Part shown: in pieces, positions 12,615-34,033 of the stretch
Layout of the letters: each line of letters opens with the position of its first letter
How positions within the stretch are numbered: position 1 is the first letter of the stretch
Source: a virus
DNA length: 35,277 nucleotides
IMG/VR virus record: IMGVR_UViG_3300028173_000031
Span: 1-35,277 of that record
Strand: one strand, 5' to 3'
Notes under the pieces: model-generated
Told to the model about the DNA's origin: nothing
The model's database searches: none
What the model saw: the letters and a program-made list of their open reading frames with translations, nothing else
Position numbers and translations under genes: made by a program

Positions 12615-13625
12615 TTACCCCTTGGAGAAACCGCTCAATTCAGCAGCGCTTGTCGGGAAGATCTTACGCATCGCGCTATCACCCTTAGACTTCTGGCGCT
12701 TCTCAGCAACCTCAACAAGGGTCTTAACGTCAACAGGCTGGATGCCCTCTTCCTTAAACTGCATGGCTCTACGCATGAACGCACCAGCAACCAACGGGTC
12801 CGAGGCGATGCTCTTGTTGAAGCGGAACAGCGTGTTGAATACCTTCTGCACGTCTTCTGGCTTCTCGGTGCTCAGCTTGGGGTTCTCAGCCATCATCTTC
12901 TTGAAGTACATCTTCTTCTTGACTGGGGTAGTAACCGCTTCCTGAGTCGAACTCAGGGCGTCAATACCTCCGCCAATAGCAGCCGCACCGGCACCAAAGG
13001 CTAGTGCCTTTCTACCTGCGCTACCCTTACCGAACATACCCTTCACACCCTTAATCATCTTGCTCTTAAGGGTAGGTTTGTTGATACGATTCTTAATCAT
13101 CTTAAGCGAACCGGCTCCTGCAATACCCGCAGCACCACCAGTCATCCACTTAAGTGTCTGCGCACTGACGTCGTCACTCAGCGCCTTACCGAAGTTCTTT
13201 ACTCCTTCTGGTGGCCCGCCCAGGCCCTTATACGACTTAGAGAACTGTTGCTTTAGGGTAAGTTTCTTGGCCTTAGTGAGTACTTTTCCACCGTCACGGG
13301 ACCCACCAACCTGACGTGTTCGCTGTGCGAGGGAGTCAGCGGCCTTGCGAGCTTTTCCTTCGTTAAAGAAGTTACGCTCAGCTTCTGACAGGTTCTTTTT
13401 TGGCATTACTGGGGTGTTCTTACGGGGCCTAGCATGCACCGACCCACCAACCCTAGCAGAGCGGCCCTTTCCGCCTCCGGACCCTCCACCCATACCGTAA
13501 AGTCTCTTAGCCCTAGGTGGTGTCCTAATCTTGCTAACACGGGGGTGGGTCTGTCCACCTCTACGAGTAACCTCGATTTGTCTACGAACAGCGTTAGCTA
13601 GCTTCAACTTTAATTCACGGTCCAT
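12615..13625 (-). CDS. Basic virion-block protein with helical C-terminal domain
   Basis: The ATG at 13625 follows the previous stop by two bases; a GTG at 13637 has no ribosome site. 336 residues. The first 150 are basic and Gly/Arg-rich (MGGGSGGGKGRSARVGG). A Gly/Ala hydrophobic segment follows (ALAFGAGAAAIGGGID, near residue 215). The C-terminal 110 residues are a compact helical domain (VQKVFNTLFRFNKSIASDP, then VAGAFMRRAMQF). The division into a disordered basic arm and a folded tail suggests a DNA- or scaffold-contacting virion protein. No function is recognised. Confidence 0.5.
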   Translation of the reverse strand: MDRELKLKLANAVRRQIEVTRRGGQTHPRVSKIRTPPRAKRLYGMGGGSGGGKGRSARVGGSVHARPRKNTPVMPKKNLSEAERNFFNEGKARKAADSLAQRTRQVGGSRDGGKVLTKAKKLTLKQQFSKSYKGLGGPPEGVKNFGKALSDDVSAQTLKWMTGGAAGIAGAGSLKMIKNRINKPTLKSKMIKGVKGMFGKGSAGRKALAFGAGAAAIGGGIDALSSTQEAVTTPVKKKMYFKKMMAENPKLSTEKPEDVQKVFNTLFRFNKSIASDPLVAGAFMRRAMQFKEEGIQPVDVKTLVEVAEKRQKSKGDSAMRKIFPTSAAELSGFSKG

Positions 13626-13627
13626 AA

Positions 13628-14239
13628 TTAACCCCACGTAGAGTTTGCTAGGGGATTCTGCCCACTAGTACGCTGTTGCATAGCCCGAAGTACTTCTGGC
13701 TCGATTCTATTCTTAGGCATAGACTCCTCTGGAGAAAGCGCGGATGCAACATCTCTAGCAGCTTTACTGGTACCTAGCAGGTAGGCGATACCTGCAGCAC
13801 CCAGCGCTTTACCAGGGTGTTTTCGAGCTAGGCCAACCAATCCACCACGACCATAACGCTGTTTGTAGTGGACAGGTTTATTACCTATCACACCCGCGTA
13901 GGCCTTACCTTTCTTTCGGCGAGTCTTGATATCGGCGTAGTCTTTGGCACTAATCTCTTTTAGTCCCTTACCTGGGCCACCGGAGATCTCCTGCAGACGC
14001 TTACCTTTATTTACACCACGAGTCTGCTTGGGCCCTAGGATCATACTAGCGAATCCATCACCTACAGCCCTAAAGGGAGCAGCAGTGACTCTACCGACAG
14101 TGTTACCTAGAGCTCGCTCACCGAAGTTAAGTCCCTTCTTACCAGCCTTAGCCTCTGCCTCTTTAATAAGTCTACCCTCCGCTACTACCTGAGTAATAGA
14201 CGCGAGTAGTGCGTTACGTTGGGCTTGTTTAGTAGACAA
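13628..14239 (-). CDS. Basic protein of the virion block, TTG start
   Basis: The frame extends to a GTG at 14263, inside the previous gene. A TTG at 14239 has AAGGAG exactly six bases upstream and follows the previous stop by one base, so it is preferred (203 residues). Basic throughout (KGKRLQEISGG, DIKTRRKKGKAYAG), with one hydrophobic Gly/Ala stretch, KHPGKALGAAGIAYLLGTSK, near residue 145. It belongs with the other basic Gly/Ala-rich proteins of the block. The function is unknown. Confidence 0.5.
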   Translation of the reverse strand: MSTKQAQRNALLASITQVVAEGRLIKEAEAKAGKKGLNFGERALGNTVGRVTAAPFRAVGDGFASMILGPKQTRGVNKGKRLQEISGGPGKGLKEISAKDYADIKTRRKKGKAYAGVIGNKPVHYKQRYGRGGLVGLARKHPGKALGAAGIAYLLGTSKAARDVASALSPEESMPKNRIEPEVLRAMQQRTSGQNPLANSTWG

Positions 14240-14240
14240 C

Positions 14241-15200
14241 TTAGGCTCCTTGAGGTGGAACACCTGGGGCCGCTCCTGGAGGAGCCATTCCTGGTGCTGC
14301 CTGGGGAGGAGCCATTCCTGGATCCATGCCTGGCTGTGGTTGACCTTGGAATAGGTCCGATGTCGGCTGCACCGCAGCGGGCCCTGCGAGAATGGCCAGT
14401 AGTCCTGTCATTGCCATCTTAGTCTGCTCGAGAGCCATAGACGCGGACATCATCTTCTGGGAGATCATATCCAGGTCCTGGGTCAGGCCTGTAATCGGGT
14501 TACCCATAGCTGGCATCATACCTGCCTGAGCTAGCTTATTCAGCTCACCATAAGCTACGCGCTCACCGAACTCTTCCTTAATAACTGCGAGAAGACCTGC
14601 AGTTTTCGGGTTGGCGGACTCAATAGCGGAGCCGATAACACCGGGCGTATAATGCCACCGCTCGCTTGCAACCTTCACCATGTCATCCAGAGACGCGAGT
14701 GTGGCTGTGTAGTTGAAGATCAGCCCGTCCAGATCACTCTGCTGGTCCAACATGAGCCGGTGAGTGTTGGCTGCCTTATGGTCTGTTACTTCTCTAGAGT
14801 CTGCCGAGGCGGTCTTTTCCATCTCAGTAGCGAACACATCGCCGATCTCTTGTCCAGGAATGTACTTGTCATCGTTCTTAGGGAGAGCCACAACGTGGGC
14901 TACCTTCTCTTTACGGTCACAGTTTGAGTAGATGGCCTCTGCATCAGCCACAGGGAAGTTTACGTTCTTCCCATATCCCTTCTTGAATAGAATGTGGAAC
15001 GTGGCGACGTTAGCGTGCTCTACAACACGCTTGGTCTGCTCCAGGTTCAGGCCTGCCTCTTTCACCATTGTCTTAATGGAGTCGTTCAGGGTTTTTCCTG
15101 AGCGCGAGTATTCCATAGCAGCACCCTTACCGAGCTCTTTTAGCTTGTCGGAGGAGACGCCAAGGTCTTGCTTACTCATTAAGTATGATTCTAGGTCCAT
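14241..15200 (-). CDS. Virion-block protein with Pro/Gly/Met-rich repeat tail
   Basis: The ATG at 15200 has AGGTGA upstream and begins five bases after the TerL stop (319 residues). The first 130 residues form a mixed, mainly helical domain. EKTASADS (near residue 130) and PKTAGLL are KTA motifs. The last 30 residues are short repeats of PGMAPP and related units, likely disordered. Position directly downstream of TerL is where a portal gene often lies, but size and sequence do not resemble a portal. The function is unknown. Confidence 0.5.
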   Translation of the reverse strand: MDLESYLMSKQDLGVSSDKLKELGKGAAMEYSRSGKTLNDSIKTMVKEAGLNLEQTKRVVEHANVATFHILFKKGYGKNVNFPVADAEAIYSNCDRKEKVAHVVALPKNDDKYIPGQEIGDVFATEMEKTASADSREVTDHKAANTHRLMLDQQSDLDGLIFNYTATLASLDDMVKVASERWHYTPGVIGSAIESANPKTAGLLAVIKEEFGERVAYGELNKLAQAGMMPAMGNPITGLTQDLDMISQKMMSASMALEQTKMAMTGLLAILAGPAAVQPTSDLFQGQPQPGMDPGMAPPQAAPGMAPPGAAPGVPPQGA

Positions 15201-15204
15201 GGTC

Positions 15205-16887
15205 TCACCTATCGTCAATGTCTGGCGTGAGGATATCAGGCCTCGGGTGCATCATCATTGACACTAAAAAGCAGTACAGCATCGAGTGGAGGGTGTCATC
15301 GGTAGTACCTGGGGTTCTATCTACGACGGTAACTCTCCTCGCATTATTGTACTCCTTGAAAACAGATAGCAAATCCTGTGCGAATGGGTGTTCCCAACAT
15401 TCCCATTTAGGGAATTCTATCTCATCCTTACGGTTAATAGCGTTTATCAGCGCCATTAACACCTCGGACCGATTCACCATCCAACGCATTAAATTCTTGT
15501 CGAAGTAAACTCTCTTAGTATTTACGTATTGGTAGCGGATGATCTTCCGAATACCGAAGTCACGGATCAGCTCGTCATTGCGGTCCAGGCCACCACCGTA
15601 ATCGACACCGACAAGCTTAATCTTGTAGTCGTGGATTAACTTTTTGATGATCGGCATCATGTTTACTTGCGTCGATTCCTCACCAACAAAGCGCTTCATG
15701 TATACGAAGGAGAACTTGCCTCCGAAATAGCCACCGATAGTGACAACGGTTTTACTATCTCCGTCAGAACCCCAGTCGATACCCATCCATAGATGTGTGG
15801 CTCTCTTAGCTAGGATCGCACCCTGCTCGAAGGTATAACCACCTGAGCATTCTTGGAGCGTATCGGTCGTAAGAAGCTTCTCGCTGGAGTCGTACTCCAT
15901 ACCCAAAACCTCATTATAGAACTGGGCGGTGGTGTAGCGGTGCATGGTATCGATGACTTCGTCCCAGCTCACCCAAGGGGTGATTACCTGAGGGATGCGG
16001 TAGCCTTCGAATGGTAGGGGGGTAGGTGGGTTGTCTAGCCACGACTTGGTGCGCATAGACGCCCAACGCGCTTCGGGGTGGGCGGGGTAGATTTGGTTAC
16101 CGCAACGCTCACAGATAAGATGCTTCTTACCCACATTCTCCAGCCTCACGACAATCCAATGTCTTGGGGTGTGGAAGTCGCAGGGAATCACCCACTCGTA
16201 TTGCGTCGAGTACGCCTGCCAGTATTTGGCAATAGTATTATCTACTGACTTAGGTGTACCCGAGTAACGTTTGTATCTAAACGTGGAGTGCTTCTGGGTC
16301 TCTTCGATTACGGGGATGATGTCAGTGAGGATGTCCTGAAGCTCGTCTAGGCAGAGTAGATCAACTTTAGGGATACCACGGGTACGGTCGGCGTGGAGGA
16401 ATGCATATCGAAGGTCGATCTCAGAGCCGGTGATGAACACCTTTCGAAAGACAGATTGTACGCCTGGGATGAATGTACGAATCTTCGCACTGCTCTCAAT
16501 GGGTTTGTTGATCTTATCTCGAGAGAAGGTTTCAGTCTGAGACTGAGTGGGGGTCACCAGTAACGACCTAAAGTGGCGTCTAAGGATAGAGTAGATAAGG
16601 AGCAGATTACCTAAGTAGGTGGACTTCTCGCTCTGCCGAGCAAACTTCAGTAAGACTCGACGTGCGGAAGTGTCGTATACAGGCAGTAGATATTCTCTCC
16701 CCTTAAAGGAGAACGGAATGAGGTCCCCGTCGTCGTTAGGCAGATACATCATCCTTGATGTAAATTCGGATGGATACAGCTTAGCCATATCGTTCTTAGT
16801 AATTTCTTGGGATAGTCTTGGACGTACACGCATGTCAGATAAATTTAACTCCGTTATAGGCTGCCTATCTAGAGCGCTAGGCAACAC
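15205..16887 (-). CDS. Terminase large subunit (DNA-packaging ATPase and nuclease)
   Basis: The motor that translocates DNA into the prohead and cuts the concatemer. The ATPase domain has the phosphate-binding loop ARQSEKST (about residues 83-90), Walker B LLCLDE (178-182) and the SGTP coupling motif (near 225). A Cys pair in CERCGNQ may form a zinc ribbon with other residues. The nuclease domain has MGIDWGSDGDSKT, LVGVDYGGGLDRN and a late acidic set, TTDDTLHSMLY, the usual order of RNase H-like terminase nucleases. The start is uncertain. The frame reaches 16974 inside the previous gene. GTG 16887 is seven bases after that gene's stop, and ATG 16833 has GGAG fifteen bases upstream. I give 16887. 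Confidence 0.88.
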   Translation of the reverse strand: MLPSALDRQPITELNLSDMRVRPRLSQEITKNDMAKLYPSEFTSRMMYLPNDDGDLIPFSFKGREYLLPVYDTSARRVLLKFARQSEKSTYLGNLLLIYSILRRHFRSLLVTPTQSQTETFSRDKINKPIESSAKIRTFIPGVQSVFRKVFITGSEIDLRYAFLHADRTRGIPKVDLLCLDELQDILTDIIPVIEETQKHSTFRYKRYSGTPKSVDNTIAKYWQAYSTQYEWVIPCDFHTPRHWIVVRLENVGKKHLICERCGNQIYPAHPEARWASMRTKSWLDNPPTPLPFEGYRIPQVITPWVSWDEVIDTMHRYTTAQFYNEVLGMEYDSSEKLLTTDTLQECSGGYTFEQGAILAKRATHLWMGIDWGSDGDSKTVVTIGGYFGGKFSFVYMKRFVGEESTQVNMMPIIKKLIHDYKIKLVGVDYGGGLDRNDELIRDFGIRKIIRYQYVNTKRVYFDKNLMRWMVNRSEVLMALINAINRKDEIEFPKWECWEHPFAQDLLSVFKEYNNARRVTVVDRTPGTTDDTLHSMLYCFLVSMMMHPRPDILTPDIDDR

Positions 16888-16894
16888 TATTATC

Positions 16895-17266
16895 TCATTC
16901 GAGGTCCTTGAGGAGGTCTGCCATGCTAGGTGTAGGCCCAAGCTTCTTACTACTGCTGATATCCACAACCTCAAACGGGTTATACGCTACTTCCATCCCA
17001 CCGCTAGGGTTAGCTACCGATCGCGTACGGCCACGCTTACGATTAGGCTCTGACTCATCGAGATCGTTTAGGTCGACGAATGAATCACAAAGGAAGTCTT
17101 CTCGGACCGGGACGTCGTACATATAGCACTCGCCGTCGCCTTTCCAAGATCGACCAGACATATAGCCGAAGTGTGCGCATCCAGAACAGCGTTCATAGGG
17201 GGTACCTATACGCAGATTCGGTGCGATTCCTATTGGCTTAGTGATCCGATCAAGTACGTTACCCAC
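16895..17266 (-). CDS. Cys-rich protein next to TerL
   Basis: The frame extends upstream, but GTG 17266 has AGAGG about seven bases before it and overlaps the helicase stop, so it is chosen (123 residues). Residues 25-65 hold four cysteines in the pattern CSGC, then C in GECYMYDV, then C in EDFLCDSFV. This spacing suits a small zinc site. The C-terminal half is Arg- and Ser-rich and probably disordered. It is directly before TerL, so a packaging accessory role is possible but unproven. It does not look like a small terminase subunit. Confidence 0.5.
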   Translation of the reverse strand: MGNVLDRITKPIGIAPNLRIGTPYERCSGCAHFGYMSGRSWKGDGECYMYDVPVREDFLCDSFVDLNDLDESEPNRKRGRTRSVANPSGGMEVAYNPFEVVDISSSKKLGPTPSMADLLKDLE

Positions 17267-18971
17267 CAACCATCCTCTTGAAGAACGACGGCTTTTTGGG
17301 TGCAGGTGCCGCCTTCTTATATTCGTATCGTACATTTCCCTTTGCGTCAACGTACTTACGGAGGTACTTGTGTGGTTGCTTGATTACGTCATAGAACTGC
17401 TTAGTGGTTTTGTGCTTCCGACCAGCCACATTATACATCCACTCATCTGTGGTGCGTGGGGCTTTTCTACCTACGAGCTTACCTAGAAAACCAGGTGTTT
17501 TAGACGTTGGGGCTACGCTCATATATCTACGGGTATCCACCACCCTCTTCTCAGGAGCACGGAACTCCTGCCCACCAAGACGTCTAGCTCTGGCTTCAGC
17601 CTGGAGGATGCGTTCGGGGTTAAAGTGGCCATCTAGTGCATAGAACGCTGTGGCATTCTTGAGGTCCAAGCCCTCAGCTCCGGCACCGGTTAGAACGATT
17701 ACGCGCTTGCTGCCCTTCTTGAATTCTGTGATGCCTGCATTCCGGCTCATCTCAGTCACTTTGGAACCACCGACGTCAGTACCTTTACCGACGAATAGTG
17801 CGGGCTGGATACCCATCTTACGGAGCCCAGCAACCAGTACGTCCGCTCCACCACGAACCAGGTTGGAGTAGAGGACGACCTTATGATTGGGATCTAGGTC
17901 CAAGTGAGACTTAGTATCACTGAGCATCTTCTGCACTTTAGGAGTGCGGTGTGCGCTTTGCTCTAGCGATACGTCTGACCTACCTGAGCTCACGCTGTTG
18001 GCCATTCTCCTGGCCTCGGTTAGTTGCGCAAATAGGAGGTTGGCGTCCTTGACGGTGATGTTCTTATCGCGTCGTGCGATAAACTCTTTGGCAGGTCCGA
18101 GTTTGTTTAGTGCTAGCTGGTATAGCTGGAACTGCTCATCGGACATAGGAACCTTAACGTTCTGTACATCCTTGCGGGGCATGCTCTTGCCCTTCATATC
18201 CGACGTGGTGACATAATCAATTCTAGGAGCGGTAACCTTGGCGATACCTGCCTCGTTCTTAGGGCCGATTACCTTCTTAGTCCTACCACTGAATCCCTCT
18301 TCGAACCCAATCGTCTGGGTGAACTTACGCTTAAACTCGCGTGGGGACATGCCTCGCATACCCTCACTAATTGTGAGTAGTGTGGCGATCTCTTGTGGAT
18401 TGTTGTTAACCAGTGACGCAGTTAGTCCAATGAAATTAGTCGAGTGCGCCCTAGCTGCCACCGCTGCCTTAAACACACCCGCCTTCTCATTACGCACCTT
18501 GTGAAACTCGTCGAGGATCAGTGTATCAGCACCGGTTGCCTTCATGAGACCGATGGGGTCCTTACGGAACATTGAGTAACTGACCACGGTGTAGTCTTTG
18601 TCACTACCGACAGACCCCATGGGGACACTGCCCGCTCCGGAACCAATTATCTGGTGAGAGCTAGTTGTAAACTTCTCCACGCCATTCTTGGCAAAGTTCT
18701 TCCTAAGGCCAGCAGGGGTCACTACTAGTGCCTTAGTAGCCTTACCCTCATGACGCATCTTCTCGAAGCCGTACACGGCGGTGACGGTCTTACCAGTGCC
18801 CATTTGGTGAGCAAGGATAAGCTTGCCCTTGTTGGAGAAGAGCTTATCCACCGCAGACGCCTGATGGGGATATGGCGCAAACCACTCCTTCATCGCAGGT
18901 ATGTCAGTACCGCGCTTCTTCTCTACTGGCGCACCTTCAGCGTGCTTCTCTATGTACGAAGCTAAACTCAT
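17259..18971 (-). CDS. SNF2-type superfamily 2 helicase/translocase within the virion block
   Basis: 570 residues with both RecA-like lobes. Motif I is HQMGTGKT (55-62), Ia LVVTPAGLRKNF, II LILDEFHK (DEFH, 154-157) and III GLTAS (182-186). Motif V is LTGAGAEGLDLKNA and VI is QAEARARRLGGQ (about 457-468), with the Arg pair that contacts ATP. Motif details and the Q-x-x-R-x-x-R type motif VI match SNF2-like DNA translocases. The last 60 residues are a basic tail (KTTKQFYDVIKQ, AAPAPKKPSFFKRM). It lies between a basic structural-type gene and TerL, overlapping both. It may act in late DNA processing or packaging, or be packaged. Those roles are inference. Confidence 0.82.
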   Translation of the reverse strand: MSLASYIEKHAEGAPVEKKRGTDIPAMKEWFAPYPHQASAVDKLFSNKGKLILAHQMGTGKTVTAVYGFEKMRHEGKATKALVVTPAGLRKNFAKNGVEKFTTSSHQIIGSGAGSVPMGSVGSDKDYTVVSYSMFRKDPIGLMKATGADTLILDEFHKVRNEKAGVFKAAVAARAHSTNFIGLTASLVNNNPQEIATLLTISEGMRGMSPREFKRKFTQTIGFEEGFSGRTKKVIGPKNEAGIAKVTAPRIDYVTTSDMKGKSMPRKDVQNVKVPMSDEQFQLYQLALNKLGPAKEFIARRDKNITVKDANLLFAQLTEARRMANSVSSGRSDVSLEQSAHRTPKVQKMLSDTKSHLDLDPNHKVVLYSNLVRGGADVLVAGLRKMGIQPALFVGKGTDVGGSKVTEMSRNAGITEFKKGSKRVIVLTGAGAEGLDLKNATAFYALDGHFNPERILQAEARARRLGGQEFRAPEKRVVDTRRYMSVAPTSKTPGFLGKLVGRKAPRTTDEWMYNVAGRKHKTTKQFYDVIKQPHKYLRKYVDAKGNVRYEYKKAAPAPKKPSFFKRMVGG

Positions 18972-20773
18972 TATCGTTTCTTTCTCGATTTCTTCTTTCT
19001 GTTGGTACCGGCCAGGTGACCAGCAGTTAGGCCTAGTGCGGTGGGGGCACCTAAGCCTGCAGCCAGGTTCCCTCGCTTACCACTAAGCATCTTCATAGCC
19101 TTACGCTTACCTGGCTTGCTGATGCCTGACGAAGCAGCACCTGCTAGCCCGGAACGGATAATTGCTCCGGATAGATTCGCACCTGACTGACTGGCTGGGG
19201 AGATGAGGGTCTCCATAGCCACGCGCTTGGCTCTGGATGCTGGCGATCCGGCTAGCCCAGGCATAACCGCGTCCTTAATGCCTTCGGCAACCATGTCCTT
19301 ACCCATACGCTTAAACGCGGGTAGGTGTTGCCCTAGACCCTTGATTCCGCCGAGCAACCCGTGGGCACCCATCGCCGTGGAGCCAGGTAGGCCACTAGCC
19401 ATAAGTCCACCACCCATAGCGGCAGTTAGCGCGTCTGGTCCGTACTTACCAATAGCCCCTTGGCGCTTACGCGCGTGGTAGCCCTTGGGTAGTCCGTTGG
19501 AGTCTAGGACTCCTCGACCACGGTACATCACCTCTTTGTATGCTGGCTCGACGTACTTGCGTACAAACTTGTTGTTGCTCTTTTGGTATAGGTCTTCTTT
19601 ACCCAGAGCCATCCGGGTACCCCTATCAAACGATGATAGGATAGGAGTTGGGTCACCCTTGGCAGTGTAGGTAAGCTTGGGGTTATTAGCGATTTTACCT
19701 GACAGGTTGGATAACACCTCGGCCCTACGCTTCTCAGGGACGCCACGAAGTAGCTTGCCTAGTTGCTGACCTGCCTGCCGGTTGATGCGCAGTTCGGGCA
19801 TAGTAAAGCCTAGGGCGGCTGCGCCTCTAAACCCTAGGTTCTCGTTACCAGCAACTCCCTCCCTAATACCCACGGCGAGCTGCCTAGCTCTGGCCTCATC
19901 GACTAGGTTCTTAGCGCCTCTACCACCGGGGATAAAGTCTAGCACTCGGCTAGCTGTACCGCCCCGCATGAGTCCCTTAGTGGACTGATGTACAAACGGA
20001 AGCGCTGCGAGTTCAGCAACACTGGCTGTCTTCTTTTTCATAGCATTCCTAGCCGCAGAGATGACTCCCGAGAGGGCTAGACCACCGACAGCGCCACCAG
20101 CTAGACCGCCTGCAACTGCTGGTCCAGTAACCTTAAGCGCCTTAGCGACGGCCTTATGGAAGGAGACACCCTTCTTGCCTTGAGACGCGAGGGACCCAAC
20201 AAGCTTCTCACCGCCACGGCTGGCACCACCAACAGCCGCACCACCAAGTGCAGAGGATAGGTACATATCCTTCTTGTTCTTCTTCTTTTGGCCGTGCGCT
20301 AGGGCAGCGCCCATAGCTAGGGCGGCAGGGAGTTTGTACCCTACGCGCATACTACCTAGGCCTAGCCCCTTGATTGCTGCGGACCGTGTGCTTTTACCGC
20401 TAACCTTACTTGCGCGGTAGCCTTCGATAGCACCCTTCTGACCAGCATAGACAGACGAGCTTGCACCGATAAGTGCGAAGCCTCGTTTACGCTCATCCGA
20501 ATCCTTTGATTGTGCGAGTTGGATACCTTTGAGAAACACTGGTGCGGAAAGAATACCAATACCGGCACCGATAGCACGACCAGAGCCACGACCGGCCACG
20601 CCCTGCTTAAGGCCCTTTAGGATGGGTAGCTTTCTCTTAGAGAGCTTAGACTCGACAGCATGCTCAATTGCGCCCTTAGGTAGGTCACCCAGAACGGCCT
20701 TAGCGGCAAACGCGGGTGCAGAAGCAGCAAGAGCTGATGTGTAGCTAAGGTTATTTGACCGATCCGTTGACAT
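18971..20773 (-). CDS. Large basic Gly/Ala-rich virion-block protein with many hydrophobic segments
   Basis: 600 residues. The sequence alternates basic stretches with Gly/Ala hydrophobic segments such as GAGIGILSAPVFLKGIQLAQ, LPAALAMGAALAHG and VAGGLAGGAVGGLALSGVIS, and ends in RKKKSRKKR. One KTA motif (KKKTASVAELAALP) lies near residue 245 before a change in composition. The pattern suits an internal virion protein that could form a membrane channel or coat DNA. No enzyme motif is visible. Its start overlaps the previous gene by 23 bases, and its stop overlaps the helicase start. Confidence 0.5.
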   Translation of the reverse strand: MSTDRSNNLSYTSALAASAPAFAAKAVLGDLPKGAIEHAVESKLSKRKLPILKGLKQGVAGRGSGRAIGAGIGILSAPVFLKGIQLAQSKDSDERKRGFALIGASSSVYAGQKGAIEGYRASKVSGKSTRSAAIKGLGLGSMRVGYKLPAALAMGAALAHGQKKKNKKDMYLSSALGGAAVGGASRGGEKLVGSLASQGKKGVSFHKAVAKALKVTGPAVAGGLAGGAVGGLALSGVISAARNAMKKKTASVAELAALPFVHQSTKGLMRGGTASRVLDFIPGGRGAKNLVDEARARQLAVGIREGVAGNENLGFRGAAALGFTMPELRINRQAGQQLGKLLRGVPEKRRAEVLSNLSGKIANNPKLTYTAKGDPTPILSSFDRGTRMALGKEDLYQKSNNKFVRKYVEPAYKEVMYRGRGVLDSNGLPKGYHARKRQGAIGKYGPDALTAAMGGGLMASGLPGSTAMGAHGLLGGIKGLGQHLPAFKRMGKDMVAEGIKDAVMPGLAGSPASRAKRVAMETLISPASQSGANLSGAIIRSGLAGAASSGISKPGKRKAMKMLSGKRGNLAAGLGAPTALGLTAGHLAGTNRKKKSRKKR

Positions 20774-21137
20774 GAGCTTTTACCAGGTTCGCCAGTCGCT
20801 TAGTAAACAACGGGAGGATGGTCTCCACCACCATTATAGGAGACGGGGTAAATTCAAAGTACCAGCTTTTGGCCTCAGGTACGTACTCAACGACGGGTGG
20901 GGGTGGCATGGTTTTCACCATTGAGATCATTTCTTTCAGTGCGGATTGGAATCCAATAGGGAATTGGTTCCCCTCACAGAAGAGCTGAACCTTTACACGG
21001 TTGCCGTCTACAAAGTACTTAGCGGTTATTCCCTCAATAGGAATTACCAGGTCTTTAAGAGTCACCGGTGCGAAGTTGGGTAGCTGCATACTAAGTACAG
21101 CCTCGATCTCCTCTAGAGTAGGCATCTGCGTGGTCAT
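20751..21137 (-). CDS. Small protein of unknown function
   Basis: 128 residues, with GGGAG before the ATG and an ATGA overlap with the previous stop. It contains strand-rich stretches (VTLKDLVIPIEGITAKYFVDG, VKVQLFCEGN) and a C-terminal helix. It is translated between two structural-type genes and probably coupled to them. The family is not recognised. Confidence 0.45.
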   Translation of the reverse strand: MTTQMPTLEEIEAVLSMQLPNFAPVTLKDLVIPIEGITAKYFVDGNRVKVQLFCEGNQFPIGFQSALKEMISMVKTMPPPPVVEYVPEAKSWYFEFTPSPIMVVETILPLFTKRLANLVKAHVNGSVK

Positions 21138-21961
21138 TCGGTGCTCCCAGGAACATTAGACTCAAGCTCTGCCTTCACCTTATCTAGATCCTCTAGAGAG
21201 GTAATCTCACGCCTACCTAACTGAATGGATAGTTGGCGTAGCTCGGTTAGGATCTCACGTACACCGTCACCAGAACGGTTGAGGATTTCAGACGCCTTGA
21301 ATACGTTCTCAGCCCAAAGTTTAGCGGTCATAGCCGTATTACGATCGTTCTTCATCTCGTTAGTTTCCATGAACCGCATTGCAGACTCATGGAACATACT
21401 CTTGATGACTTCCTCTTGGGGGATGTCTACGCGGTACCCAACCTTCCAAAGGGCAAATTCGGGGCCCTGATTATAGCAGGCGCGAAGATCTACCCCTCGA
21501 GGGTGCTGTCTAAAAATAGAGAACCACTGGTCAATGGTGAGCAAGTCACGATTCCAGAAGTAGTGCTGGTACATCTCCAGTACCCCTTCGGGTACGAGCT
21601 GACCAGTAATCTCTTTGGTGTAGTAGCTGACTTCAGAGTGCTTCATGCCCGCTAGTATAAGCGGCTCGATAACAGGCCGAACTCTAGTGTTGGACAGGAG
21701 GTCTCTAGCGGCGACAGCATCATCATCCTGTCTAGCCAAGGAGACAACTTTCTGTCTACGAATCCATGGACGTGCAGCTTTGTACTGATATCCAAACGGT
21801 TTGGGTTTGGATTCCTTAAGCTTCTTATTGAGGAAAGAGAGGTACTCCTTCGTGGGCTTAATAACCCCGAGGAGATCTGCTGAATCCTGAATCTCAGACT
21901 GGTTAAGGCCTGAAAACAACAGCATGTACTTAAGCCAATACTCGTTAGGTAGTCTCTGCAC
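21134..21961 (-). CDS. Helical protein, possible terminase small subunit
   Basis: 275 residues from a GTG that overlaps the previous stop, with GAGGG just upstream. Around residues 95-150 the segment LILAGMKHSEVSYYTKEITG followed by EGVLEMYQHYFWNRD looks like a helix-turn-helix followed by the aromatic helix found in some small terminase-like proteins. The C-terminus is a long charged helix (LGRREITSLEDLDKVKAELE) that could oligomerise. The next genes lead to TerL. The match is weak; another DNA-binding or virion protein is equally possible. Confidence 0.35.
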   Translation of the reverse strand: MQRLPNEYWLKYMLLFSGLNQSEIQDSADLLGVIKPTKEYLSFLNKKLKESKPKPFGYQYKAARPWIRRQKVVSLARQDDDAVAARDLLSNTRVRPVIEPLILAGMKHSEVSYYTKEITGQLVPEGVLEMYQHYFWNRDLLTIDQWFSIFRQHPRGVDLRACYNQGPEFALWKVGYRVDIPQEEVIKSMFHESAMRFMETNEMKNDRNTAMTAKLWAENVFKASEILNRSGDGVREILTELRQLSIQLGRREITSLEDLDKVKAELESNVPGSTE

Positions 21962-23978
21962 CTGCCCTCAACTGTAATTTCTTGAGACCGTTAAGTGCTC
22001 GCTCAATTCCGTTAAGGGCTGAGGACACTGCTGCCTCTGGGATATCTGTGACACCAAGGCGTACACCGATTAACAATTCGGCTAGCTTTCCAACAGACTC
22101 CTCTAGTTGCGGCACGGAGTCAACGTAGTTCTGAACATTCTCTGGCGTAACGAAGTTCAGGGATAGGACCGAATCCACAGTATCGGAGTTATTAAGGGAG
22201 GCCGCTTCCTTAATAAGATCGATCTTAATGTCTTCAACTATTAGCGCGGTAATAGCGTCTACACCGGCAGTCTTGGTCTTGTTGGTGAAGATCGCGGTGT
22301 GTACCGGTACGAACTTAACCGGGGCCCCAGCCTTAGCGGCAGCAATCTTTTCCTTGGCACCTGCGTCGGTATCACCCATAAGCACCAGCACCTGAGCAGC
22401 ACCCAACTCACGGATTTCGCCGTAGGTTTCTAGGTCTGTGTCACCCCTACTGAAGTTGAAGTGGCCCTGATTCTCACGTAGCTCAACCTCGTCAAGCATA
22501 GAGTTAGCCGACGACAGCTTCACCATACGCGAGGGGTCGGAGCCGTACTTGACCGAGGACACGCTTACCGGGAGAAAGATGTGGTCGGATGGGATAATGA
22601 ACCCGCTCTCGCCATAACGTACGAGCCTATTCGTATTGCCTGACGCGATCTTGATTCTTCCGTAGATCGGATCATCTACTAGGTAAACAGTTGGGCTATT
22701 CGCACTGGTGACCACACTAGCAACCTTAATCACCTCGGTGACCGTGTCACCAAAGACAAACACACCGGAGCCCTTGGGGGCTGACCCCTGTAGAGAACTA
22801 AGATCCAGGTCACCGCAGCGAATACCCGCTACCTTCTCCTGAACGGCATTACCTGATTTAGCCACCACAATCGAGGTGTCGGAGGGTTTCCCGTCCACAA
22901 TGCGGATAGGGTTCTTAATGACCACGGCCCGCTGTGAGTCGCCTGCCGTTGTCTGCACTGCGTAGATACCGGACTCAGTAGCCTCAGTAATCTGGTCGGG
23001 TAGGTTGATAGCAGGTAGTCCCGCTTGCTTTTCTCTCGAAAGAATAGCGAACCCATCGTTAATAGCTGTTTGACGAACCTCTACGGGGAGCGCTTGGGCT
23101 TCCGCGTATTTAAGGAACGATATGCTTACTTGGTCCGCTGGGCCGTCTCTATTGAAACTTCGGATGGAGTAACCAGTACTAGTCTTCATAACTGAAGTTA
23201 CGTCTGAGTTACTTAGGTCGTGTGCGAGCCGTGCGTAGAGGTCGGTTCGGTTGCTTGCCTCTTTAGTAAGTGGCTTGCTCACAGCACTGGCCAACTTGGT
23301 TAGCGACTGCATGAAGGCAGGGTTAGCTTTAGCCGCACCTGCTAGACTTTGTGAGTCACTGACGGATTGGATGAACGCGTGAGCGGTATCGGTGTCAATG
23401 TTCAGGTGCGTGAGCACTGAGGCGGTCTTGTTGGTAGCCCCGCCTCCGCCGTAACCATTACGACCAGAGTTAGCTGCACCGGGTGCAGAGGGATTAATAT
23501 TGCCACTTCCCACATCGGTAGATGTACCCATAGCTGCACTAGTGGGGGCAGTCACGTATGGACTTGCGTTAAACAAGGTGGACGCTACACGGTTCTCGCT
23601 CAGCGGGTAGAACTTACCGGCAGCATCAATAAACACGTCGTAGGAGTAGGCCTTCTTCTCGGCAACGATCACCGGGATGCGAAGCATCGCACCCTCTTCA
23701 GGTGCCTGAGGCTGGACTTGCATCTCCCCGGCACCGACAGGGTTGGCGTCCGGTGGGACCTCATTAACCTGGCTTACCATGAACACCCCGTACATATACC
23801 CGAGGCTGTCATCCTGACCCTTGATGTCCAGGTTGACCTGGTACTTACCGAGGAAGGGGTGCTGCTTGTACAGCAACGCCAGCAGCTCACTCGGGTAGGT
23901 AGCAGGGTTATCACTTAGGTTGTTCTTAGCAGCGGTTTTCTCGAAAACCAAGCCTTCGATCTTATTTAGAAGTTTCAT
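21945..23978 (-). CDS. Large virion-block protein with KTA motifs, function unknown
   Basis: 677 residues, first gene of the minus-strand block. AGGAG lies 12 bases before the ATG, further than usual. VFEKTAAKNN at residues 11-20 would release a 16-residue leader if KTA is a cleavage site. Two further KTA sites lie near residue 190 (NKTASVLTH) and near residue 565 (TKTAGVDAI). The middle is beta-rich (VFVFGDTVTEVIKVASVV, TVYLVDDPIYGRIKIA). The end is helical. It lacks portal-type signatures, but a divergent portal cannot be excluded. Virion function is inferred from its place and the motifs. Confidence 0.5.
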   Translation of the reverse strand: MKLLNKIEGLVFEKTAAKNNLSDNPATYPSELLALLYKQHPFLGKYQVNLDIKGQDDSLGYMYGVFMVSQVNEVPPDANPVGAGEMQVQPQAPEEGAMLRIPVIVAEKKAYSYDVFIDAAGKFYPLSENRVASTLFNASPYVTAPTSAAMGTSTDVGSGNINPSAPGAANSGRNGYGGGGATNKTASVLTHLNIDTDTAHAFIQSVSDSQSLAGAAKANPAFMQSLTKLASAVSKPLTKEASNRTDLYARLAHDLSNSDVTSVMKTSTGYSIRSFNRDGPADQVSISFLKYAEAQALPVEVRQTAINDGFAILSREKQAGLPAINLPDQITEATESGIYAVQTTAGDSQRAVVIKNPIRIVDGKPSDTSIVVAKSGNAVQEKVAGIRCGDLDLSSLQGSAPKGSGVFVFGDTVTEVIKVASVVTSANSPTVYLVDDPIYGRIKIASGNTNRLVRYGESGFIIPSDHIFLPVSVSSVKYGSDPSRMVKLSSANSMLDEVELRENQGHFNFSRGDTDLETYGEIRELGAAQVLVLMGDTDAGAKEKIAAAKAGAPVKFVPVHTAIFTNKTKTAGVDAITALIVEDIKIDLIKEAASLNNSDTVDSVLSLNFVTPENVQNYVDSVPQLEESVGKLAELLIGVRLGVTDIPEAAVSSALNGIERALNGLKKLQLRAGAETT

Positions 23979-24033
23979 AGGCAGTCTACACTCCTGAAGG
24001 GTTGCGCGATCTTAGTGTACACCACCGCCGCGT

Positions 24034-24050
24034 ACCTTGCGATGCAAGGT
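24034..24050. repeat. Perfect 7-bp inverted repeat in the control region
   Basis: ACCTTGC and GCAAGGT flank GAT. The right arm contains the GCAAG box of the plus-strand promoter at 24044-24071. The left arm places an equal box on the minus strand, 56 bases upstream of the 23978 start, so the repeat could serve both directions or bind a dimeric regulator. Confidence 0.5.
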
Positions 24051-24071
24051 TACTACCCTAAAGGGTATAAG
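24044..24071 (+). promoter_or_regulatory. Phage-type promoter P1 (GCAAG, 18 bases, ATAAG)
   Basis: GCAAG (24044-24048) and ATAAG (24067-24071) are spaced by 18 bases, with AGGGT before the second box. Four other plus-strand gaps in the window have the same layout. A second inverted repeat, TACCCT-AA-AGGGTA (24054-24067), overlaps the spacer. Transcription would start near 24078, beyond the ATG at 24076, so the first start used is probably the GTG at 24109. Confidence 0.55.
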
Positions 24072-24108
24072 CAACATGGACACTACACAACATACCTGGA
24101 GGTTGGAG

Positions 24109-24258
24109 GTGCTGAAGTTTTTCCAAACGCGAGGTGGTGCGCAATTTATCCACGTCGTGCAGATACAGATGAAGCGTATCGCTGATGCGCTAACTAAAAT
24201 TGGTGATGAACTTGAGAAAGAGCGCTTGCGCAGGGAGAAGGCTGATGACGATTCCTAA
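24109..24258 (+). CDS. Small coiled protein of 49 residues, GTG start
   Basis: The frame is open from 24037. The predicted promoter puts the transcript start near 24078, and GTG 24109 has GGAGG exactly six bases upstream, so 24109 is preferred (49 residues). The product is a single charged helix (MKRIADALTKIGDELEKERLRREKADDDS forms its end). It overlaps the next gene by 14 bases. The function is unknown; a small regulator or anti-host protein is possible. Confidence 0.5.
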   Translation: MLKFFQTRGGAQFIHVVQIQMKRIADALTKIGDELEKERLRREKADDDS

Positions 24259-25051
24259 GTGGGAAGAATTCCTATCTGGCTCCGCTAAGGAGCCTGAAGC
24301 GATTACGTGCAAAGACGTATTCGCGTTATTTGATCCGGAGGGTGACAACCCAGATGTCATACGGGTTCCTGGGCACATACGAAAGTATGGTAAGAGCTTG
24401 CACGAGAGCAAGATGCGCAGGGGAGAGCTACCGGGGGTGCAGGACCTGCTCAAGGAGATGGGGTTGCCGGAGAGTGCCACGGCACTGCCGGCCACTATCG
24501 AAGACTTCCGCCCTGGTGAGTTCAACCTGCCGGAGTGGCAGAACGGTATGATGGACCAGTGCCGCGAGTTGTTCATGGAGGACGGCTACAGCGCCCCTAT
24601 GATCCACATTGCATTTAAGGGTGAAGACGGGGCCATCGGTGTTATGCACATGTCCCTGGTTGCCCTACACGATAAGGGGTACAGCAACGACATCAAGGCG
24701 TCATTCGCTCGGGATGTTCTGTCTCCCCTGATGAAGAAGTTCAACGCATTCTGCTACATCACGACGGCAGAGGCCTGGGCACGTGTTGGTAAGGTTGACC
24801 CCAACCACGTTGGGGATATCGACGCCCTCGATGGCTACGAGTCGGTAAAGGACCATCCGGACAGTATTGAGGTTATCCACATGCATGTGGAGACCAAGAC
24901 TGGTTCGAAGATGATGATGACGCGAATCCTACGTGACGCTGAGGGTAACCACTCCTTGTCCGATGAGGATGAGGATATGAACCCTGACGGTGGTCTACCT
25001 GAGGGCCCCCTGGTTGGTCTGCTTCTTATGCAGAACATGGCGGAAGCATGA
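24245..25051 (+). CDS. Protein of unknown function, first large plus-strand gene
   Basis: The ATG at 24245 has AGGGAGAAGG just before it and is preferred over 24200 (268 residues). A mixed alpha/beta protein with strands APMIHIAFKGEDGAIGVM, FNAFCYITTAEAWARVG and SIEVIHMHVETKTGSKMMM and a Glu/Asp-rich end. No catalytic motif is recognised. It overlaps both neighbours and forms a unit with the next two genes, ending at the terminator at 26174. Confidence 0.5.
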   Translation: MTIPKWEEFLSGSAKEPEAITCKDVFALFDPEGDNPDVIRVPGHIRKYGKSLHESKMRRGELPGVQDLLKEMGLPESATALPATIEDFRPGEFNLPEWQNGMMDQCRELFMEDGYSAPMIHIAFKGEDGAIGVMHMSLVALHDKGYSNDIKASFARDVLSPLMKKFNAFCYITTAEAWARVGKVDPNHVGDIDALDGYESVKDHPDSIEVIHMHVETKTGSKMMMTRILRDAEGNHSLSDEDEDMNPDGGLPEGPLVGLLLMQNMAEA

Positions 25052-25767
25052 GTCAGCTTTTCGTCAGCGTTAAGTCCAAGAAAGATTTATTTGCAATGCA
25101 TGATTTCTTGAAGAAGAACCTGCGCCCTTGGTGGCAGGTGCTGCTTTCAGATATCGATATCGATCACCCCCTGGTTGCATACCAGGAATATGAGTACGGG
25201 GAGACCCGGAACATCCTACCCAACATCGACGAGGACTTGACGTTGGCCATCGCCGCTCATCCGAACGGAACGGATGGACTGGTGTACCCCACGCTCTCCG
25301 CGTTAATCCCAAGTAGCCTCCACAAAGGATCGGGGTACTTCACGCAGTGCATCATGCGCTTTGTAGCGACCAAGGTCGGAATCAAGGGTAAAGTGTTTGT
25401 TCCGATGCTGGACGACTACATGGAGGTCCCTAGCGTTAAGAATGACGGGGATCTAGGTGTTGGGGATATTCCAATCATCTACCCATCGCCGTTGGCGGCA
25501 GCCGCATTCCGAAAGATGGCGCAGGGTGACACGTACCGTGGAACTAACTGGCGGTCTGTCAACCAAGTAACCTTCGGTACCGGCTATACCGCCTTTCCGT
25601 CCGATTTCAAGAGTGCTACGCACTCCAAGGCGTACCAGGCTGGTAAGGGTCAGGTCTTCGTATTCGTAAAGTCCTGCGCGGCTGCGGACCTCGCTGCACA
25701 GCGGGAGATGCGAAGACTCAGCGACCTTTGGTGTGACCAAGGCTGGGACGCAAGGCGGAAAGTCTGA
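25048..25767 (+). CDS. Protein of unknown function
   Basis: 239 residues; ATGA overlap with the previous stop. It contains alternating strands and helices (LTLAIAAHPNGTDGLVYP, YFTQCIMRFVATKVG) and several aromatic residues. No cofactor or catalytic signature was recognised. It is cotranscribed with the genes on either side. A role in early or middle phage development can be guessed from strand and location only. Confidence 0.5.
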   Translation: MSQLFVSVKSKKDLFAMHDFLKKNLRPWWQVLLSDIDIDHPLVAYQEYEYGETRNILPNIDEDLTLAIAAHPNGTDGLVYPTLSALIPSSLHKGSGYFTQCIMRFVATKVGIKGKVFVPMLDDYMEVPSVKNDGDLGVGDIPIIYPSPLAAAAFRKMAQGDTYRGTNWRSVNQVTFGTGYTAFPSDFKSATHSKAYQAGKGQVFVFVKSCAAADLAAQREMRRLSDLWCDQGWDARRKV

Positions 25768-26162
25768 TGGGGGATGACTACGTATCCATGCTGAGTAGGC
25801 TCGGTTGGTATAGAGGCCAGATACGCAGCAGTCGTGCCCGACAGGTTGTATTCCTTAAGAATAGCCGATGGTTTTTCAGAGGTACAAGGATCGGAGATGG
25901 TGACATTGGCCGTGGGGACATTGAGGACGCGATGGCGGTGCTACGCCCTGGCGAATTCCTGATCCTTACTAACGAGCATAGGTCTGGTTACGAACAATCT
26001 GGGATTCCTTTCTTCATCGTGGGTCAAGGTCAGATCATCTACAACTCGGACTTTTATCCTGGGAGGGCGCTTACCAACCAGATGAGCTTCGACAAGGTTC
26101 GGGCCATGAGCACCTCGGAGATGATGTGCATGTTACCTGCGTTGGCCAGCGCGCCAGCGTGA
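25767..26162 (+). CDS. Protein of unknown function
   Basis: 131 residues. The start overlaps the previous stop (TGATG). The N-terminus is basic (LGWYRGQIRSSRARQVVFLKN) and the centre has strand pairs (GEFLILTNEHRSG, IPFFIVGQGQIIYN). It is the last gene of its unit; the terminator at 26174 follows after 11 bases. The family is not recognised. Confidence 0.5.
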   Translation: MGDDYVSMLSRLGWYRGQIRSSRARQVVFLKNSRWFFRGTRIGDGDIGRGDIEDAMAVLRPGEFLILTNEHRSGYEQSGIPFFIVGQGQIIYNSDFYPGRALTNQMSFDKVRAMSTSEMMCMLPALASAPA

Positions 26163-26173
26163 TATTTGATACT

Positions 26174-26194
26174 AAGGGGCTTTACCCCTTTTTT
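26174..26194 (+). terminator. Intrinsic terminator between converging genes
   Basis: AAGGGG and CCCCTT form a 6-bp stem with a CTTTA loop, followed by four more T. It ends the plus-strand unit 24109-26162. The 3' end of the converging spike gene at 26193 lies at its edge. Confidence 0.75.
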
Positions 26195-27593
26195 ACTTAG
26201 TCTTAGTCCCTAACGATACTGCGGCGGGGGCGATAGCTAACGCTGGCGACGGTGTAGTAAACGCAGGGACAACCACACCGGGCATACCCAAAACGGCGTT
26301 CGCCACAATAGCGGCACACAGGGGCTGAGGTATAATTAGTGTGACTCCGTGCGTATGTGCGGCGACTGCGTTGAGTAGTCCGTTATCTTTAACTACCGGA
26401 AAGGAGGGCCCACCTCCTGCACCGCCACCTACTCCAGTAGCGCCTAGAACGATCTGTCCGGCAGCGATAGTGACTAACGCAGAGTTCTCAATCGATAGAT
26501 TACCTAGTTGGTTGTCCAAGGTGATGCTACTCGAACCCAACAGTATTTTGCTGGCAGCAGCGACTACAAAATCCTCAACTATGGCTTCTAGGTCCCCGCC
26601 AGATGTTAGGTCCACGGTGCTTCCGCCTGCCCCAAACTCAATCTTGGCGTTACCGATGATACGGGTGTAGAAATCACCATCGAGCTCTACGTGAATATTG
26701 CCTGTTGATTTTACGAAGTTGTTGCCCTCTCGATCTAGCTGGTAGGCGTAGGTGACCTTCTTCGTGTTATGGGAGTAGATGGTGAAGCTAAGGACGCCGT
26801 CGTCCCCGGTTGTGGGGATGGAGGACTTTTCCTTGCGCAGGTCTTCGTTAGCGAAGATGTGCTCATTGTCCTTTTCCAAGTCTAGGGTGTCCTTAGTGAC
26901 GTTACCCATGCGCAGCTCTAGGGTGTACTTACCATCAGATACGTCTTCTTGAGCAGTGTTCTTGAACGAGTAAGAAATCAATGCAGGCGTACTGTCCGTG
27001 GATCCCGTGATCTTCTCTCCAACCTTCAAGGTCGGGTGCCCCCAGATAATCTCACCTAGAGGAGAGTGCGCCTCGTATCTCTGGAAGTAGTCCTTGATGG
27101 TGTTCTGAATTGGGATGTACACACGCTGAGCCATGCTGGTGGCCCCAATCTCTAGAAGACCGCCAGTTCTCATTATAATGAAATTACGGTCCCTCGTAGC
27201 CAGCATAACATCGCCTGGCTCTAGGGGTGGGCGGTTGCCCATGTAAGATATGCTGGCCTCTGCAGATGGTGCCTCTTCTTGAGAGTCTCCCTCCAAAGCT
27301 ACAATGGAACCAGAGCGAGGGTTAACTACAAACCCAAGGATGAAGCAGGTCTTATCAGCAGAGACAACCACATAGCAGTGGCTGCCGACCTCGGGCATTA
27401 CATTAATGCCACCAGCGTGTTCGGAGCTTGCGTAGGGGGTTGCGAATGGAACGTCCACTAGCGGCTTGTGCGTGTAGATGGTCATCAGGTCCACGCTATA
27501 CTCCCTAGCGTTGACTGAAGTCACCTTAGCGAGCTCGATCTTAGCGGGGCCATCCGCCTGTGATGGTGTACTAGTTAATCCTCTATCAGACAT
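26193..27593 (-). CDS. Probable baseplate spike protein
   Basis: 466 residues, with AGGAGG five bases before the ATG. Residues 15-115 look like an OB-fold of the spike/lysozyme-hub type (AKVTSVNAREYSVDLMTI, then PEVGSHCYVVVSADKTCFILGFV). Residues 320-400 are short regularly spaced beta strands (GNIHVELDGDFYTRIIG, LTSGGDLEAIVEDFVVA, SITLDNQLGNLSIEN) like a triple-stranded beta-helix. An AHTHG motif near residue 416 matches the HxH iron-binding motif of phage spike tips. These features support a membrane-piercing spike. It lies away from the other virion genes and is flanked by plus-strand genes. Confidence 0.6.
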   Translation of the reverse strand: MSDRGLTSTPSQADGPAKIELAKVTSVNAREYSVDLMTIYTHKPLVDVPFATPYASSEHAGGINVMPEVGSHCYVVVSADKTCFILGFVVNPRSGSIVALEGDSQEEAPSAEASISYMGNRPPLEPGDVMLATRDRNFIIMRTGGLLEIGATSMAQRVYIPIQNTIKDYFQRYEAHSPLGEIIWGHPTLKVGEKITGSTDSTPALISYSFKNTAQEDVSDGKYTLELRMGNVTKDTLDLEKDNEHIFANEDLRKEKSSIPTTGDDGVLSFTIYSHNTKKVTYAYQLDREGNNFVKSTGNIHVELDGDFYTRIIGNAKIEFGAGGSTVDLTSGGDLEAIVEDFVVAAASKILLGSSSITLDNQLGNLSIENSALVTIAAGQIVLGATGVGGGAGGGPSFPVVKDNGLLNAVAAHTHGVTLIIPQPLCAAIVANAVLGMPGVVVPAFTTPSPALAIAPAAVSLGTKTK

Positions 27594-32227: not shown

Positions 32228-32257
32228 AGGGGCCTAGGTCTTCGGACCTGGGCCCTT
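32228..32257 (+). terminator. UUCG-capped hairpin between converging genes
   Basis: On the plus strand a stem of about 13 bp (GGGGCCTAGGTC with GACCTGGGCCCT plus flanking A-T) encloses a TTCG loop closed by C-G, an unusually stable RNA hairpin. It lies 28 bases past the plus-strand gene's stop and overlaps the last codons of the minus-strand gene. No T-run follows, so it may end or process RNA rather than act as a classical terminator. Confidence 0.5.
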
Positions 32258-34033
32258 GCCTGAGAGCAGGTCTAGTTTCTTTTGTTTACGTTGTAGGCGG
32301 TATTTGTCTGCCTGGTATAGGCCGGTGGCACCCGCAACTGGGGCTGAGGCGGCGGCTAGTAGCTTGCCTTTCTTGAAGTAAGAGAAGGCCGGTGCGCCGG
32401 ACTCACGCTTACCACCAACTAGGGACTGCAGCATCTCCTCTCGAGTCATCCCCTTGGGGCTCATCTTCCTACTGCGCATTTCTTTCTTCAGGCCACCGTC
32501 ACCAAAGGTATTACCCTTCTTGCTTACCGAGATAGACAAGTTGTCTACATCGTTAAGGCGCTTGCCTCCTGCGCTACGGAACCCCTTATCGATAACCTTG
32601 TTCAGCTTATCGATATTGTAGAAGTCGTGTTGCCACGCACCGCGCTGTCGCTTTAGCAACCGGTCCTTAACTACTTTCGTAGGGGTATTGACCTTTACCA
32701 CTACGTTGAAGTGGCGTGGGTCCACCTTATTAAGTAGGTGTGTCTGTTCGTACACGGACCCCTTACCGGGAGCATGCCTACCCATATACTCGGATAGGCG
32801 TCTACCGGACAAAGTGTTCTTACCCACAATATCAAGTTCGTTGGCCTTGGTACCTAGCTGGTCCGCAATGCCGCGTGCGATAGTGCTCTTACCTGACCCT
32901 CCCGTACCAACCACTGCAATACGTGCTTTGCGTGGGTCTACACCGGCCCGCCTAAGCTCTTTGATTAACCGCTTGGACGAGTGCTGTACATTACTGGGGA
33001 TGGCTTGGCCGAGACCGGGGTCACGCTTAACTTTACCTAGCAACATCTTTACTTTGTAGGCTAGGTCCTTTCGGGTGCCCTTTAAGGCGGCTAGCCCAAG
33101 AGCCGTACCTGCTGCCGCCCCGAGTGGGAGTGTGGCTAGGGACGGACTAGTAGACTCCTTAGCAGCGGTCTTAGTTTGACTACCAATGGCCCCACCTAAA
33201 GCACCTCCAGCAACTGGTGCAGCTAGTATGGCCCCAACCCGCTTCTTATTTACATAGTCTAGTCGTTGACTTGGCATCTTTTTACCTGTTCTTAGAAACA
33301 TCAGTTTCTGACCGTGAGACATCCCAGGTTTGCCACCAGCCGCTGCTACGAGTTGATCGACAGAGCTAGTCCCACTCTTCTTTCCGCGAACCTTTACGTG
33401 TAGGTCACCAATGGATTTAATACTATCCATACCGCTCGTATCGAAGTTGGTTCGGATGTCCTTGTTTATGTTACCGGGCTTGTACACGTCATGCTGCCAC
33501 GCACCCCGTCCTCGATTAAGAATTCTGGACGTGCGAGTGGCCTTAGGCGTGTCCAGATGCATGATGACGTCATAAGCGTCAGGGGTCTCTCTAGCTAGTA
33601 GTTGAGTTTGCTCACTTACTGATCCACCGCCAGGTAGCTCGTACTTGTATCGCTTAGCATTTGAAATCTGAGACTTAGCCTTAACTACTTTATTGAGTTC
33701 CGACGCGGGCATACCTAGTTGAGACGCGAGTTCCCTAGCGAAGGTGCTCTTACCTGAGCCACCTACACCTGAGATAGCGATCCGCGCTTTTTCTGGTGAC
33801 ACACCTGCCTTCCGTAGAGCCTTACGGAGCTTCTTAGCTTGGGCTGTCACCTCAGCCGGTGGGCCCTTATGCAGGGCAACATTCTTGTGTGTTCCTTTAA
33901 CGAGCCTACTAGCACGTGAGAGCAGATCCTTTCGGACGCCCTTAGCGGCTACAGCCGCAGCGATTGTGGCACCACCTGCGCCCGCGATTGCTCCTAGAGT
34001 GCCTAAGCTACTCCTCTTTTTTGACTCAGGCAT
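32234..34033 (-). CDS. Tandemly duplicated P-loop NTPase or kinase with Gly/Ala membrane-like segments
   Basis: The ATG at 34033 has GGAG six bases upstream; the frame extends to a TTG at 34063 with no advantage (599 residues). Two related halves follow each other. Each has a Gly/Ala hydrophobic stretch, KG(V/T)RKDL, then a P-loop kinase-like domain. Walker A is GVGGSGKST (89-97) and GTGGSGKST (376-384), and each half has RGAWQHD(V/F)Y. KTA occurs at 288-290, just between the halves. The C-terminus adds another Gly/Ala segment (LLAAASAPVAGATGLY). The domain resembles small nucleotide or nucleoside kinases, but no known catalytic motif beyond the P-loop was assigned. Substrate and role are unknown. 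Confidence 0.68.
   Translation of the reverse strand: MPESKKRSSLGTLGAIAGAGGATIAAAVAAKGVRKDLLSRASRLVKGTHKNVALHKGPPAEVTAQAKKLRKALRKAGVSPEKARIAISGVGGSGKSTFARELASQLGMPASELNKVVKAKSQISNAKRYKYELPGGGSVSEQTQLLARETPDAYDVIMHLDTPKATRTSRILNRGRGAWQHDVYKPGNINKDIRTNFDTSGMDSIKSIGDLHVKVRGKKSGTSSVDQLVAAAGGKPGMSHGQKLMFLRTGKKMPSQRLDYVNKKRVGAILAAPVAGGALGGAIGSQTKTAAKESTSPSLATLPLGAAAGTALGLAALKGTRKDLAYKVKMLLGKVKRDPGLGQAIPSNVQHSSKRLIKELRRAGVDPRKARIAVVGTGGSGKSTIARGIADQLGTKANELDIVGKNTLSGRRLSEYMGRHAPGKGSVYEQTHLLNKVDPRHFNVVVKVNTPTKVVKDRLLKRQRGAWQHDFYNIDKLNKVIDKGFRSAGGKRLNDVDNLSISVSKKGNTFGDGGLKKEMRSRKMSPKGMTREEMLQSLVGGKRESGAPAFSYFKKGKLLAAASAPVAGATGLYQADKYRLQRKQKKLDLLSGKGPGPKT

Follow-up and report, generated by a model that had tools for sequence, protein, structure and literature searches.

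The internal head (ejection) proteins of phage T4 are cleaved by the prohead protease. In Salmonella phage SPN3US, the cleavage motif of the prohead protease is AXE (PMC10052503). Mass spectrometry of virions of another Salmonella phage, Arash, detected RNA polymerase subunits, a dNMP kinase and an SNF2-type helicase, and the authors warn that such enzymes may have been carried over into the preparations (PMC10585845). Several NMP-kinase-type domains within one chain are found in adenylate kinase 9, a protein of tandem adenylate kinases.

Here we describe a 599-aa protein with two P-loop units, encoded in a 35,277-base virus record (IMGVR_UViG_3300028173_000031; the whole record is called the window, and all positions below are window positions). 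It resembles adenylate kinase 9 in having several NMP-kinase-like domains per chain, but adenylate kinase 9 is eukaryotic and the matches are only weak and local. We know of no other duplicated unit of this kind flanked by Gly/Ala segments.

An old internal duplication

The gene and its parts are as follows.

32234..34033, minus strand: tandem-duplicated P-loop protein, 599 aa (ATG at 34033, stop at 32234-32236)
33173..34033, minus strand: unit 1, residues 1-287 (half-half alignment)
33947..33997, minus strand: Gly/Ala hydrophobic segment 1, residues 13-29 (17-aa hydropathy 1.71, 71% G+A)
33743..33769, minus strand: Walker A of unit 1, GVGGSGKST, residues 89-97 (GGSGKST at 91-97)
33605..33625, minus strand: GSVSEQT of unit 1, residues 137-143, directly ahead of the region matched by adenylate-kinase profiles
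33488..33508, minus strand: RGAWQHD of unit 1, residues 176-182, lid-like, past the R-x3-R helix
33185..33235, minus strand: Gly/Ala hydrophobic segment 2, residues 267-283 (hydropathy 1.65, 65% G+A)
33164..33172, minus strand: KTA at the unit boundary, residues 288-290, the protein's only K[TV]A and a candidate K-x-A processing site
32237..33163, minus strand: unit 2, residues 291-599 (half-half alignment)
33089..33139, minus strand: Gly/Ala hydrophobic segment 3, residues 299-315 (hydropathy 1.51, 53% G+A)
32882..32908, minus strand: Walker A of unit 2, GTGGSGKST, residues 376-384
32741..32761, minus strand: GSVYEQT of unit 2, residues 425-431 (half-half alignment)
32624..32644, minus strand: RGAWQHD of unit 2, residues 464-470 (half-half alignment)
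32276..32323, minus strand: weak Gly/Ala segment 4, about residues 571-586, aligned with segment 2 and under the hydropathy cut-off

The start context is CCCGGAGACGTC-ATG, with a Shine-Dalgarno-like GGAG at about 34039-34042. The protein is basic (pI 10.6, 19% Lys+Arg) and has three to four Gly/Ala hydrophobic segments. In each unit, a Gly/Ala hydrophobic segment comes first and is followed by KGxRKDL and a linker rich in helix. Next come KARIA-x3-GGSGKST, GSV[SY]EQTxLL, a strand that ends in TP and an R-x3-R helix. After RGAWQHD, the unit closes with a basic, GM[ST]-containing linker and another Gly/Ala segment.

The protein is an old internal duplication of one P-loop unit. Residues 1-290 and 291-599 share 41% identity and 58% positives over 188 aa (blastp, E 4e-42), and their Smith-Waterman score is 390, whereas 300 shuffles reached 73 at most. 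Once the P-loop is taken out, the score is still 295 (shuffle maximum 62, again 300 shuffles). The similarity extends to the lead-in alone (101, shuffle maximum 54) and to the domain after the P-loop alone (164, shuffle maximum 53), neither score being reached in 1000 shuffles; for the C-terminal 70 aa, the observed score was reached by seven shuffles out of 1000. The third bases agree at 19 of 53 conserved four-fold-degenerate codons (chance expectation 27%). This indicates that the silent sites are saturated and that the duplication is old, with the protein motifs conserved in both copies.

These comparisons bear out the tandem P-loop duplication proposed in the original prediction, and exclude the case in which the two halves are alike in the P-loop alone. 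All the shared elements it named (GGSGKST, RGAWQHD, and the Gly/Ala segment plus KGxRKDL, with KTA in between) are present, and GSVxEQTxLL is common to both halves too. Its Gly/Ala segments are likewise real, but it understated the extent of the unit, which has such a segment at both ends.

Similarity to P-loop kinases

The Pfam family AAA_18 (PF13238) matches the full protein with 38.5 bits, above the cut-off of 29.4, because two copies that are each below the threshold (25.3 and 21.1 bits for the single units) sum. The Walker A motif, GxxxxGK[ST] followed by a helix, is present in both units at the place equivalent to that in AAA_18 and adenylate-kinase-like P-loop kinases, and past a strand and a helix both units have an Arg-rich lid region in which R-x3-R and RGAWQHD are conserved. 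Adenylate-kinase profiles match the region after the P-loop and the lid region at equivalent places in the two units (e.g. for NF002700, residues 144-179 of unit 1 align with model positions 98-133, and residues 142-174 of unit 2 with 99-130). The structure 1y63 (Lmaj004144AAA, a P-loop protein) aligns weakly with residues 121-174 of unit 2 (E 0.096), sharing a strand ending in T-P, a helix ending in R-x3-R and then a lid-like segment. Unlike AAA_18 and adenylate-kinase-like kinases, the units have a long N-terminal lead-in and Gly/Ala segments at both ends, and are duplicated.

Matches to thymidylate (phrog_2107), shikimate and cytidylate kinase models cover about 25-64 residues around the P-loop rather than most of the model, those to the last two being weak. 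For the adenylate kinase equivalog TIGR01351 the score is 25 bits against a curated cut-off of 168, and neither unit has the DG[FY]PR (DGFPR-type) signature of adenylate kinases, with GSV[SY]EQT occupying about that place. Since the cut-offs for named enzymes are far off and DGFPR is unseen, the units are placed in the P-loop kinase-like superfamily with no assignment to a family. AlphaFold models (mean pLDDT 35 and 43) were too poor for use.

Judging by these weak profile matches, each unit is most likely a P-loop kinase of the adenylate/shikimate-kinase type, and both would bind ATP and act as phosphotransferases. A kinase had been suggested originally, and the matching profiles are indeed kinase-type rather than ABC/AAA-type. 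A small molecule, nucleotide or other, is a likelier substrate than a protein, as the nearest profiles are those of small-molecule kinases. A match of residues 226-281 (33191-33358) to farnesyl diphosphate synthase (NCBIfam E 0.0011, PDB E 0.02-0.05) was set aside as probably due to chance, because unit 2 has no match at the equivalent place.

Genomic context and relatives

The phage belongs to a mostly uncultured lineage of large-genome tailed phages. Searches with the capsid protein find relatives in IMG/VR that reach 199 kb in length. Among isolates, Salmonella phage Arash (OQ632216) and Vibrio phages D69, D148 and D181 are nearest; Arash, itself distant, is the closest by major capsid protein (38% over 141 aa), terminase and helicase. 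The conserved part of the window is a block of head genes.

2725..27593, minus strand: conserved head-gene block, collinear with related phages and sharing the K-x-A motif
6693-7907, minus strand: major capsid protein (phrog_2522, weak)
10394-12115, minus strand: prohead protease-like gene (phrog_18299)
15205-16974, minus strand: terminase (phrog_675)
17259-18971, minus strand: SNF2-type helicase, in the head block

Three plus-strand genes at 24200-26162, which have no counterparts in the relatives, interrupt the minus-strand block. All tested genes from 27627 onward, including the tandem-protein gene, also have no counterpart in related phages, so the tandem-protein gene is accessory. A 22-base repeat around GGRATAAGAATA is found at 31701-31722 and 34078-34099 (82% alike), ahead of plus-strand genes at 31760 and 34136. 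Within the window, its exact core occurs at these two places only; the repeat is possibly a phage promoter element.

The original prediction recognised no described family with this duplicated layout; our searches found none either, nor any characterised homolog. Scans of viral and genome contigs for exact 8-residue peptides gave no homolog, and a scan of viral contigs for a spaced motif (EQ..L and G.WQH) gave 11 matches, all by chance. From phage and plasmid records, tblastn returned generic P-loop kinases only (e.g. MT839397 and a Priestia AAA ATPase). About 42 records of related phages, some of them fragments whose lack of a match proves little, gave no relative of the tandem protein in protein or two-unit profile searches; no relative was found in Arash.

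A K-x-A motif in head proteins

K-x-A is a lineage-wide motif enriched in head proteins. In the head block of the window (3378-24000) there are 22 K[TV]A against two mirror motifs (shuffle mean 6.4, maximum 16). Within the first 40 residues of 1070 ORFs from eight related genomes (G004, G005, G008, G010, G019, G020, G025 and G026), [EL]K[TVLYIEHS]A occurs 109 times and its mirror nine times; example N-termini with the motif are MNALEKYAAKKKL. The motif often takes the form of an N-terminal tag, MNxLEKYAAK or FxDELxKIA. EKTA, EKVA or EKIA positions are kept in the alignments of several head-protein families, and in the major capsid protein GKEKIAA is retained around residue 25, where K25, I26, A27 and A28 are invariant in six relatives. 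Arash resembles the lineage of the window in this respect: 18 [EL]K.A against two mirror motifs were counted in its head proteins (L174:11730-20608), and two against one in its tail proteins.

The natural reading of K-x-A would be a prohead-protease cleavage motif; prohead-protease site and capsid-targeting peptide are both candidates for its role. Like the motif behind the cleaved internal head proteins of SPN3US and T4, it is short, specific to head proteins, present in many putative substrates and often near the N-terminus, and virion enzymes are found in these systems. The lineage differs in that its motif is K-x-A and cleavage is putative, and in that the tandem P-loop protein has no N-terminal copy.

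The KTA of the tandem protein (288-290) belongs to this lineage motif and lies as TKTAAK between the units; a TKTASK is found in the protease-like protein, before a C-terminal hydrophobic segment. One KTA is ordinary for the composition of the tandem protein (0.47 expected), and only its position, judged post hoc, is notable: from composition, a K[TV]A would fall within residues 281-302 with a probability of 0.03, and a KTA would start at about 285-294 with one of 0.006. In the window, basic proteins with Gly/Ala segments are otherwise found mainly in the head block. In the relatives, such proteins are found outside the head block too, so composition alone is no proof of location in the head.

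In one relative, G005, a 1874-aa basic protein (L026:12458-18079) has Gly/Ala segments and three KTA motifs, and the KTA at 329 separates modules that other relatives encode as individual genes (e.g. L021:16135-17382 of G004); Pfam confirmed no domain identity for these modules. The same genome encodes a 338-aa basic Gly/Ala protein (L026:18986-19999) with HELGHS, a possible zinc-metalloprotease motif, and no Pfam match. Papain-like, glycosyltransferase or HELGH-protease domains in the Gly/Ala proteins of the relatives were considered and were unsupported by Pfam and PDB searches.

Possible roles of the tandem protein

Tentatively, and at somewhat less than an even chance, we take the protein to be a doubled kinase-like accessory protein of a tailed phage with a large genome, packed in the head and possibly cleaved. 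It arose by an old duplication of one kinase-like unit, which consists of an NMP-kinase-type domain preceded by a Gly/Ala segment and a KGxRKDL linker and followed by another Gly/Ala segment, and it would be packed in the head alongside the other basic Gly/Ala proteins of the lineage. Cleavage by the prohead protease, possibly at KTA 288-290, would release two kinases that reach the cell together with the DNA and have an early role. The Gly/Ala segments could help passage or membrane contact, but they may instead be soluble helices. Processing into two parts, at the KTA between the units, and delivery by the virion had both been raised in the original prediction. These putative events are made more plausible by K-x-A being a head-protein motif of the lineage and by a composition like that of head-block proteins. 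A fuller version of this account, in which a head-packed two-kinase polyprotein is cut at K-T-A and injected as a membrane-inserting pair, as one of a set of module-swapped, K-x-A-tagged delivered enzymes, seems unlikely.

The strongest alternative is an ordinary tandem kinase that works inside the infected cell: two fused NMP-kinase-like domains, uncut and with no virion role, would act on nucleotides there, and the Gly/Ala segments would serve as flexible or amphipathic linkers. This is possible, if rather doubtful. The gene is outside the head block, the usual though not strictly defining location for processed head proteins, and lies amid plus-strand accessory genes, with a calcineurin-like phosphoesterase in the region. 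The protein also lacks the N-terminal EKxA that is common in putative head proteins of the lineage, and cellular tandem adenylate kinases do exist (adenylate kinase 9, PDB 9d2f, a weak match). However, it would be unusual for a cytosolic NMP kinase to have so high a pI and Lys+Arg content and such Gly/Ala segments, which are typical of the head-block proteins of this phage.

A P-loop protein with no kinase activity, whose ATP binding serves assembly or DNA handling in the head, is quite improbable. The profile matches do not extend beyond the P-loop and lid region, no best full-length family was found and the DGFPR-type signature is missing, as such a protein would have it, but an intact Walker A and an Arg-rich lid-like region with RGAWQHD in both units point to selection. 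Slightly less probable still is a membrane-anchored P-loop NTPase acting at the host membrane (e.g. in superinfection exclusion or counter-defence) and not delivered by the virion: the hydrophobic segments flanking each unit and the accessory gene location would suit it, but the segments, only 17-20 residues long and very rich in Gly/Ala, have moderate hydropathy values (1.5-1.7), similar ones are found in head-block proteins of the same phage, and matches to defence-system models sit around the P-loop.

If the tandem protein is delivered by the virion, as in the head-packaged account, it would add an internally duplicated kinase to the head-delivered enzymes and would illustrate the way in which phages put together and process cargo of several enzymes. 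The K-x-A motif is arguably a more general finding than the tandem protein. It is a concrete, testable signature for predicting the packed and processed proteins of this lineage, for which Arash is an available isolate.
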